Part shown: positions 14,387 through 37,750 of the stretch, piece after piece | Layout: the number at the start of each line of letters is the position of its first letter | Position numbering within the stretch: position 1 is the first letter of the stretch | Assembly: GCA_031278215.1 (NCBI GenBank) | Contig: JAITKV010000026.1 | Coordinates: forward strand, 1 to 64,000 | Direction of reading: 5' to 3' | Length of the DNA stretch: 64,000 nt | Origin: Spirochaetaceae bacterium | GTDB taxonomy: Bacteria > Spirochaetota > Spirochaetia > Treponematales > Breznakiellaceae | Translations under genes and position numbers: made by a program | The notes under the pieces: generated by a model | The model's database searches: none | Told to the model about the DNA's origin: nothing | Seen by the model: only the letters and a program-made list of their open reading frames with translations

Positions 14387-14421
14387 CCTTGTTTACAGAA
14401 ACCGTATAAGTATGGTGTATA

Positions 14422-14465
14422 AAACGGCCAGGCATGGAATCGGCGGATTCCCTGCCTGGCCGTTT
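14422..14465. terminator. Long near-perfect hairpin (13+6 bp stem), possible bidirectional terminator
   Basis: AAACGGCCAGGCA-T-GGAATC-GGCG-GATTCC-C-TGCCTGGCCGTTT. Confidence 0.6.
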
Positions 14466-14569
14466 CGCGTTATGCCCGGATATTCCGGAAACGCCCTGGG
14501 GTTTTGGGGGCTTTCGGAAGTCCGGGGTTTTAGGAAGTTTTGCCAAAAACCTACTGGTGCAACAGGCCC

Positions 14570-28459: not shown

Positions 28460-28666
28460 GCAAAATGTTTTGCATTTTGCGGGTTTTAGCGGAAATTGTT
28501 CGGAAACTTCCGAAGTTTCCGAAAACTCTATTGAAAAAAAATTCATTTTGGTATAGATTATTCCTTGTAGGGAATTCCGATTGTAATTGTTTGTCAGGCA
28601 AAGTCCTTGCCTGCAAACCAAAATCTATTGTGTATAGAATTGTTTGGAAACTTCAAGTTTCTAAAC
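28460..28666. repeat. Cluster of short hairpins (repeat copy A region)
   Basis: Hairpins at 28460-28480, 28501-28521, 28560-28575, about 28590-28617 and 28642-28666; shares TTGTAATTGTTTGT…CAAACCAAAATCTATTGTGTATA with 37681-37749. Confidence 0.75.
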
Positions 28667-35869: not shown

Positions 35870-36835
35870 CTAAAGCCGGGCGGCGGGCGCTTGGGGGCCG
35901 CCGTTTGTCAGTTTTAGCACGAGGAGTTCCATAAGGATCTTTTCCCAGCCCCCCCCCGAAGACCGAAGGAGGAATTCGTATTCTCCAATCAGGGCCAGGG
36001 CCCCCTCGGCCCGGGGCCAGCGCTTTGCCGCTTCCAGATAGTCGGAACGGACCTTGCCGGAAAAAAGGCCTATTTTTTTTAATTCAAAGTCGTTTACGGT
36101 TCCCCCGGCGGCCAGGGCAAGATAATCCCGAAGCCTGCGGAAGCACCAGGCAAGGCTGGCCATAATGGCCTGGGGGCTTTCCCGGGCCTCCAAAAGATTT
36201 TTAAGGATCCCCAAGGCCGATTCCGGTTTTTTCCGGGCCATGGCGGCAAAGAGGGTAAAGGCCGATTCTTCCCTGGTATGGGAAAGGCAGTTTTCCACCT
36301 CCGCGGCGCCAATGGGCTTGTCCTTCCCTAAAAAAAGAATAAGCCGCAGGCATTCCCGGCCCAACGCGTCGGTGTTGTTTTCTACCATTTCCAGCAGCAC
36401 CCGGACGCCCTCTTCGTCTATACGGCAGCCCTGGGCTTGGAAAAAAGAAGCAACCCATTCGGTCTTTTTATTTTCAAAGAGTTCCCAGAAGACCGTTTTG
36501 TTTTCCCGGGGAACCGCTTCTTCAATCCGCTTGTCAAGTCTGGTTTCATCGGAAATAAGAACCACCGTGGTATGTTCCTGGGGCTTTTTTAGATAGGCCG
36601 CAAGCATGTCCACATCGTCTTTTTTTTTAATCGCTTCTGCATTTTTTATAAAGAAAAGCCGGGCCTCCGAAAAAAGGGCGCCGTTTCTAAAGACCGAAAC
36701 CATAAACGGCAGGGGGGTTTCGCCGGCATAAAAACTTGTTTCTTCGGTTTCCGGGGGAAGCCGGGAACGGAGGGTTTTAATGGCCGCCAGTTTTTTCCCT
36801 AGCTCCGGGCCCAAGAAAAGAAACGAGGAATTCAT
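35870..36835 (-). CDS. holA: DNA polymerase III delta subunit-like
   Basis: HolA layout: FYAGETPLPFMVSVFRNGALFSEARLFFIKNAEAIKKKDDVDMLAAYLKKPQEHTTVVLISDE. Confidence 0.75.
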   Translation of the reverse strand: MNSSFLFLGPELGKKLAAIKTLRSRLPPETEETSFYAGETPLPFMVSVFRNGALFSEARLFFIKNAEAIKKKDDVDMLAAYLKKPQEHTTVVLISDETRLDKRIEEAVPRENKTVFWELFENKKTEWVASFFQAQGCRIDEEGVRVLLEMVENNTDALGRECLRLILFLGKDKPIGAAEVENCLSHTREESAFTLFAAMARKKPESALGILKNLLEARESPQAIMASLAWCFRRLRDYLALAAGGTVNDFELKKIGLFSGKVRSDYLEAAKRWPRAEGALALIGEYEFLLRSSGGGWEKILMELLVLKLTNGGPQAPAARL

Positions 36836-37443
36836 TGGCAGGCGCGGATCACATAGGCCAGTTTACCCAGGATCCGGACATCCTGGCTGTAGATGGGATT
36901 AAACTCGGGGTTTTCCGGCTGCAGCCGGATGCGGTTTGCCTCTTTAAAAAAGCGCTTTACGGTTACCGCCTCGTCCACCACCGCCACCACAATGTCTCCG
37001 TTTTTTGCGGTATTCTGCTTCTGGATTAGCGCCGTATCCTTGTCCAGAATTCCCGCGTCCCTCATGGAACTACCCCTAACCTTAAGGGCAAAGTACTGAA
37101 GGTTTTTTTTAAGGAACGATGAATGGACCGCAATGGTTCCGTCCCAATTTTCTTCCGCCAGGATGGGCCGGCCTGCGGCAACCACCCCCAGGATGGGAAT
37201 TTCCACAACCCCGGCGTATTCCTCCGGCCCGCTTTGTACCACTTCCATGGTCCTGGACCGTTTGTCCCCTATTTTAATCCAGCCCTTTCGTTTTAGGGCG
37301 GATACATGGTCATAGGCGGCTCTTACGGATACGGAAAGATACTCCGCCACTTCCCGTATGGTCGGCGGATATGAATGGGATTTAATGTACCCGGTAATAA
37401 AGGCAAATACTTCTTTTTGCCGTTGGGTAAGCTCTTTCATCAC
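36832..37443 (-). CDS. lexA: LexA repressor
   Basis: MKELTQRQKEVFAFITGYIKSHSYPPTIREVAEYLSVS; cleavage-site region GVVAAGRPILAEEN, GSSMRDAGI serine, DEAVTVKRF lysine. Confidence 0.93.
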   Translation of the reverse strand: MMKELTQRQKEVFAFITGYIKSHSYPPTIREVAEYLSVSVRAAYDHVSALKRKGWIKIGDKRSRTMEVVQSGPEEYAGVVEIPILGVVAAGRPILAEENWDGTIAVHSSFLKKNLQYFALKVRGSSMRDAGILDKDTALIQKQNTAKNGDIVVAVVDEAVTVKRFFKEANRIRLQPENPEFNPIYSQDVRILGKLAYVIRACQ

Positions 37444-37482: not shown

Positions 37483-37698
37483 TACAATGATTTAGCAAAT
37501 TTTACAATAGACGGCAATTCTGCCCGGTGGGCGCATGCATATACCGATGATGGTTTTGAAGGATGGTGTTACCCCGGCTATTTAGTGTCTGTCCATAAAG
37601 CCGGTGCACAAACTACGCTTGCGACTTTATGGACAGACTCTATTTATTCCCTGACAATTCCAAATTGTCAGGGCGCTCCGTTTGTAATTGTTTGTTAG
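37483..37698 (+). other. Open frame without a start codon, possible gene remnant or repeat-encoded ORF
   Basis: YNDLANFTIDGNSARWAHAYTDDGFEGWCYPGYLVSVHKAGAQTTLATLWTDSIYSLTIPNCQGAPFVIVC*. Confidence 0.35.
37585..37639. mobile_element. 55-bp MITE-like palindromic element with 7-bp flanking direct repeat CTATTTA
   Basis: Perfect 14-bp inverted repeat GTCTGTCCATAAAG/CTTTATGGACAGAC (37587-37600, 37625-37638) flanked by CTATTTA at 37578-37584 and 37640-37646. Confidence 0.6.
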
Positions 37699-37750
37699 GC
37701 AAAGAATTAGCTAATTCCTTGCCCGACAAACCAAAATCTATTGTGTATAA
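37643..37750. repeat. Dispersed hairpin repeat, copy B
   Basis: CCCTGACAATT-CCA-AATTGTCAGGG hairpin, TTTGTAATTGTTTGTTAGGCAAAG, palindrome GAATTAGCTAATTC, CAAACCAAAATCTATTGTGTATA shared with 28580-28637. Confidence 0.75.

Follow-up and report, generated by a model that had tools for sequence, protein, structure and literature searches.

A probable TA-duplicating MITE of spirochetes whose right end is a Shine-Dalgarno sequence in relatives and has lost it in one genome

Results

Two copies of a short repeat in the window

The window, the whole stretch of 64 000 nucleotides that was analysed (G000:C52:1-64000), belongs to a genome of 2.1 Mb in 62 contigs, assembled to ~80% completeness and referred to here as G000. 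A full-length repeat element, copy B, lies between an ORF at 36832-37443, which we read as a LexA-like gene, and a tRNA gene, each encoded on the minus strand, and we saw no sign that this copy has a regulatory role. From border to border it reads TA-TTCCCTGACAATTCCAAATTGTCAGGG-CGCTCCGTTTGTAATT-GTTTGTTAGGCAAAGAATTAGCTAATTCCTTGCCCGACAAAC-CAAAATCTATTGTGTA-TA, and it scored 103.5 bits over positions 1-105 of a covariance model of the element. Its parts are listed in Table 1.

Table 1. Positions of the element copies in the window and of the parts of copy B
Feature	Position	Strand	Remarks
Copy A, decayed 78-bp copy	28559..28636	+	59.5 bits, covariance model
Copy B, full-length element, TA to TA	37645..37749	+	105 bp; self 100%, other copies at best 92-94%
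Left TA, target dinucleotide	37645..37646	+	Left TA in 38/39 full G000 copies; paralogous empty sites GAT-TA-AATGACGC
Hairpin 1 / left terminal repeat	37646..37677	+	TATTCCCTGACAATT CCA AATTGTCAGGG; both-side changes in 5/15 pairs across lineages
Conserved linker	37677..37689	+	Here TCCGTTTGTAATT; consensus TCCGATTRTAATT; potential tail-pairing partner in relatives
Hairpin 2, with inner palindrome GAATTAGCTAATTC	37690..37731	+	Both-side changes in 9/19 pairs
Tail / right terminus	37732..37749	+	CAAAATCTATTGTGTATA; same position in relatives ..AAATCTATGGAGTATA, Shine-Dalgarno GGAG

A preliminary description had placed the repeat at 37643-37750, where it indeed lies, within slightly narrower natural borders. 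The 11-bp hairpin named there was recovered as CCCTGACAATT (37649-37659) with AATTGTCAGGG (37663-37673), as were the spacer TTTGTAATTGTTTGT at 37681-37695, the inner palindrome GAATTAGCTAATTC in the second stem and the tail CAAACCAAAATCTATTGTGTATA at 37727-37749. Copy A, which precedes a nitroreductase-like ORF by ~60 nt, lacks the inner palindrome and most of hairpin 1. The exact tail that the two copies were said to share occurs twice in the window and 0 times in 100 shuffles, but their second stems proved to be homologous and not unrelated sequences.

A second palindromic repeat (GTGTCTGTCCATAAAGCC...GACTTTATGGACAGACTC) adjoins copy B at window positions 37577-37646, with TATTTA on either side; it is also found beside other element copies (e.g. 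at loci L008 and L016) and represents another MITE-like family. At 14405-14503 a weak covariance-model match (34 bits), with a tail-like AAGTATGGTGTATAA beside a perfect hairpin, is possibly a decayed or distant copy of the element. An integron attC-like reading of GTTAGGC/GCCCGAC was discarded on inspection, the order of R' and R'' being wrong.

Copies and forms in the window's genome

When the 20-nt tail ACCAAAATCTATTGTGTATA was searched in G000 with up to three mismatches, 66 matches were obtained and the reversed pattern gave none. BLAST recovered a family of ~40 copies, the best of them 93-94% identical over 107 bp, and alignment defined ~39 full copies: 18 are 105 bp long, 11, without the 11-bp inner palindrome, are 94 bp long, and a few have other lengths. 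About eight short copies of 33 bp (TATTCCCTGACAAACCAAAATCTATTGTGTATA), palindromic mini-copies (TATTCCCTGACAATTTAATTGTCAGGGAATA) and several truncated copies are also present. Element length thus ranges from 33 to 107 bp, and no internal ORF is fit to be a transposase. The 33-bp forms share an identical junction at several sites (L004, L019, L086, L087 and others); they are either mobile themselves or the products of repeated deletion between CCTGACAA direct repeats in hairpins 1 and 2.

Distribution and sequence evolution

A covariance model built from 29 sequences gave matches to the element in 51 of 200 genomes, distributed over 23 of the 57 genera of the bacterial family; copy counts per genome are lower bounds, since at most 19 candidates were scored in each. 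Left-end matches numbered 32 in genome G135 and 22 in G018. Copies share 97-99% identity inside each of the genomes G135, G187 and G018, against only 25-30% for their flanks, and the three sets are recent, independent amplifications. Between lineages the stem sequences are wholly different (TTCTCTGACAATT.. in G135, TAGTCAATTAATT.. in G187) with pairing kept: both sides have changed in 14 of 34 pairs among the 29 sequences (shuffles, 6.7; 0/500), and the signal is lost on sliding. The linker UUCCGAUU and the tail end are unchanged across lineages. The preliminary description had foreseen a REP/MITE-like or structured-RNA family and had named a covariance model as its check; instead of two copies without covariation, the searches and alignments revealed a numerous family in which, over 23 genera, the stems covary and the connectors are conserved.

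The exact 21-nt tail had no match in a collection of named genomes, in which a relaxed tail pattern hit four contigs, three of them from Treponema/Spirochaetaceae MAGs. We found no element match in phage and plasmid collections. Rfam 15 at gathering thresholds identified two tRNAs and nothing else in the window, and eight loci from relatives matched no Rfam 15 family at E values up to 1. Sample names, as we read them, indicate a termite-gut origin of the related contigs.

Insertion at TA and terminal inverted repeats

Both borders are TA in 34 of 38 young copies and in 35 of 39 full G000 copies, with a mild, symmetric preference for TTAA (T-TA-A) in the flanks. Many G000 copies sit within a different palindromic repeat, and filled paralogous sites read GATTA-TTCCC...TTGTGTA-TAAATGACGC. 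Two paralogous empty sites contain a single TA (GATTAAATGACGC / AAACGCTGATTAAATGACGC, the second one in reverse complement). Since the number of TAs rises from one to two on filling, the comparison fits a 2-bp duplication, and the two paralogous empty sites suggest that the element inserts at TA and duplicates it. At the filled orthologous sites L231 and L303 the left end departs from TA, and therefore the duplication can only be deduced indirectly there. The host repeat is a third palindromic repeat, AAACGCTGATTAAATGACGC..ATCAGCGTTT (L104 1501-1531, L105 1501-1532), which is filled at about ten loci and empty in two.

Imperfect terminal inverted repeats match at 16 of 20 positions in G187, 15 of 20 in G066 and 14 of 20 in G217 (p up to 0.0015), and at 17 of 27 in G135. 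In G000 they are eroded (9/20, p=0.27, for 20 nt and G000 alone).

A Shine-Dalgarno end and a bias towards start codons in relatives

Across most of the family, the relatives of G000 carry ...GGAG-TATA at the right end, i.e. a Shine-Dalgarno sequence with GGAG four bases from the border. The copies are enriched between a Shine-Dalgarno sequence and a start codon: a start codon in sense orientation follows within 0-7 nt in 32 of 113 relative copies, against a background of 5.4% at the intergenic TA sites of the same loci (p=4e-15). Counting ATG alone, 26 copies have it in sense and 2 in antisense. The GGAG tail is kept in 24 of the 32 near-start copies compared with 35 of 81 far ones (p=0.003), and the left flank carries a native Shine-Dalgarno in 21 of 32 and 15 of 61, respectively (p=0.0003). 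Between co-directional genes, 48 copies are in sense and 18 in antisense. The start-bias p-values assume independent copies, a few of which may be co-inherited, and gene starts rest on an ORF heuristic applied to draft MAGs.

Individual loci show the same arrangement. An empty site in G203 (CTGGAGGAATAAAATG / CTGGAGGAATAAAATGGACGC) corresponds in the sister genome G211 to an element between GGAGGA and AAATG; another in G198 (AAGGAGAATATATTATG) has the element at its G210 counterpart; and on G198:C28 two tandem copies occupy the interval from Shine-Dalgarno to ATG. The adjoining genes include flgG, yidC, a dihydrouridine synthase gene, an argD-like gene and ABC-transporter genes, so that no functional theme emerges. 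Genes themselves are avoided, with 25 of 113 copies inside an ORF of at least 200 codons compared with 87-93 at 400 bp away. At L231, the one locus examined in this respect, a stop within the left end of the element terminates the frame of the upstream gene.

At L334 and L340 (G198:C120 and G200:C209), where sister genomes have the element or an empty site, we found mini-ORFs (MKYSFMFDLIARQLPR, MKRRFMFDFTALPYGSAK) with their own start and stop, a new Shine-Dalgarno overlapping the stop, and a shared FMFD motif; they are a different small insertion in the interval from Shine-Dalgarno to start codon. At L278 (G217:C90) the ORF following the element fuses a MetK N-terminus with an SRP54 N domain, which looks like a chimeric contig.

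Loss of the Shine-Dalgarno end in G000

In G000 the tail reads TTGTGTATA, in which the Shine-Dalgarno and two pairs of a potential linker-tail helix (P0, see Discussion) are gone. A start within 0-7 nt follows 2 of 67 copies, i.e. the background level, and between co-directional genes 9 copies are in sense and 13 in antisense.

Discussion

The element is probably best explained as a ~105-bp TA-duplicating MITE whose right end is a Shine-Dalgarno in relatives and whose G000 family has lost that end and is decaying. We file it as a MITE because of its copy number, TA borders, empty sites and terminal inverted repeats. It would be moved by cut-and-paste or similar transposition in trans, presumably by a DDE transposase. 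IS630-type DDE_3 domains were not found in the ~80% complete G000, and the DDE_3 loci from a 36-genome search of relatives had no ends matching the element.

Since the right end carries GGAG, a copy that lands downstream of a native Shine-Dalgarno but ahead of the start codon would supply the gene with a fresh ribosome-binding site at a suitable distance. We infer that this GGAG is a working site, and that such copies can be tolerated even before housekeeping genes; the insertions must be compatible with expression of the adjoining genes. With its left end closing the upstream reading frame and its right end opening the next, the element could sit at operon junctions without harm. The location bias itself may come either from target choice or from selection. 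In G000, the change of the end to TTGTGTATA would have abolished ribosome binding and left the copies strewn over intergenic DNA as an ordinary decaying MITE family.

Other readings of the repeat were weighed against the TA-duplicating MITE. That it is a set of non-mobile intergenic repeats kept by selection as structured RNA would account for the compensatory changes in both stems, but near-identical copies stand in unrelated flanks in three genera and the empty orthologous sites already speak against it, which makes it extremely improbable. A hairpin-ended element of the IS200-IS605/REP type, moved as a single strand by a Y1 transposase without target duplication, would suit the subterminal hairpins at both ends and the strand-asymmetric architecture, and the TA common to both borders could in principle be unduplicated. 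However, no Y1 transposase (Y1_Tnp, PF01797) was found in G000 (~80% complete), the check for a REP-associated transposase having been proposed at the outset, and the REP/RAYT branch of the original classification is therefore not supported, while its MITE branch agrees with the TA insertion and imperfect terminal inverted repeats. The flanks moreover show TA and a moderate symmetric TTAA and no strict one-sided 4-5 nt target, and in three lineages the terminal inverted repeats reach significance; we consider single-stranded transposition improbable. A mobile promoter, with the tail CTGACA-N17-TATAAA acting as an outward sigma-70-like promoter, matches the G000 tail in sequence and is the very segment that the 33-bp copies retain. 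It is nevertheless highly improbable, given that G000 copies have no orientation bias towards downstream genes, that in several relatives the start codon lies 0-7 nt past TATA, which is too close, and that the -35-like motif falls within a stem of lineage-variable sequence.

More weight is due to the idea of a mobile translational-control RNA, in which helix P0, formed by the linker UUCCGAUU and the tail AAUC..GGAG, hides the Shine-Dalgarno and makes downstream translation conditional, e.g. on coupling to the upstream gene, a ligand or a protein. P0 is pairable in 91% of cells in relatives, a value that drops on sliding; its G-U events exceed its A-C events, 30 to 10 when counted by genome and site (p=0.002), which is what RNA of this strand should show; covariation is seen at position 34-103 (A with T, T with A; p=0.0017, or 0.019 at the genome level); and the predicted folds of G135 and G187 include P0. 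On the other hand, most P0 columns are near-invariant, in energy calculations, permuting the linker did not significantly change predicted Shine-Dalgarno exposure near starts (0.40 vs 0.43, p=0.77), and the downstream genes have no common theme. The structured-RNA proposal is supported in part: hairpins 1 and 2 covary strongly but show no G-U excess over A-C, so that their pairing may serve DNA and not RNA. A helix concealing the Shine-Dalgarno is possible on the weak support of these data, and the conditional control built on it is a tentative, rather unlikely alternative. We are equally doubtful of its wider form, in which mobile leader elements replace native Shine-Dalgarno sequences with their own, partly hidden one and spread translational control or coupling family-wide, G000 being a relic stage.

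The probable MITE has several counterparts among known repeats. ERIC and Correia MITEs of enterobacteria and neisseriae are likewise palindromic, 100-150 bp long, targeted to TA, co-transcribed with genes and known in internally deleted forms; unlike the present element, they are bounded by long, clear terminal repeats or consist of a single large hairpin. Their effects concern RNA stability or promoters, and we know of none with a built-in ribosome-binding site beside a start codon. The bcr1 repeat of the Bacillus cereus group is a mobile ~150-bp repeat with a similarly conserved RNA secondary structure, but differs in host phylum, sequence and target and is not known to have a Shine-Dalgarno end. 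A parallel in mode of life is RUP, a pneumococcal repeat of ~107 bp linked to IS630-Spn1 and, like our element, AT-rich, ~105 bp long, inserted at TA, intergenic, present in many copies and non-autonomous (PMC2229807, PMC3049150; the former also treats ERIC). RUP differs in sequence and from the two-hairpin architecture seen here, and its ends match IS630-Spn1, whereas we found no partner transposase for the element; a Shine-Dalgarno end or start-codon bias is not among the features in the sections of these papers that describe it (PMC2229807, PMC3049150). The pneumococcal BOX element (PMC3049150) resembles the present one in its modular hairpins and conserved joining parts, but varies in number by repetition of boxB modules, whereas the element has two fixed hairpins and an optional inner palindrome. 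Rickettsia palindromic elements (PMC10969869) are also small, palindromic, mobile and located at genes, and the 105-bp form shares with them one stop-free frame; they insert in frame inside genes, which our copies avoid. In its way of working the element resembles RUP, ERIC and other MITEs with TA targets. In the literature searched, no such element was described in treponemes, and a Shine-Dalgarno that is built into a MITE and placed in this way is, to our knowledge and from that search, new.

The usual view of small transposons is that they are neutral or supply promoters and terminators. An element with a ribosome-binding site at its end, accumulating at just these sites of housekeeping genes, illustrates how mobile elements may survive in dense operons, and it makes the rewiring of translation, as opposed to transcription, by transposition testable. 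Members of the family occur in many genera of termite-gut spirochetes, provide natural pairs of filled and empty sites and include, in G000, a lineage without both the Shine-Dalgarno and the location bias. If the wider reading as mobile leader elements is true, transposition would spread ready-made translational control over many unrelated genes.
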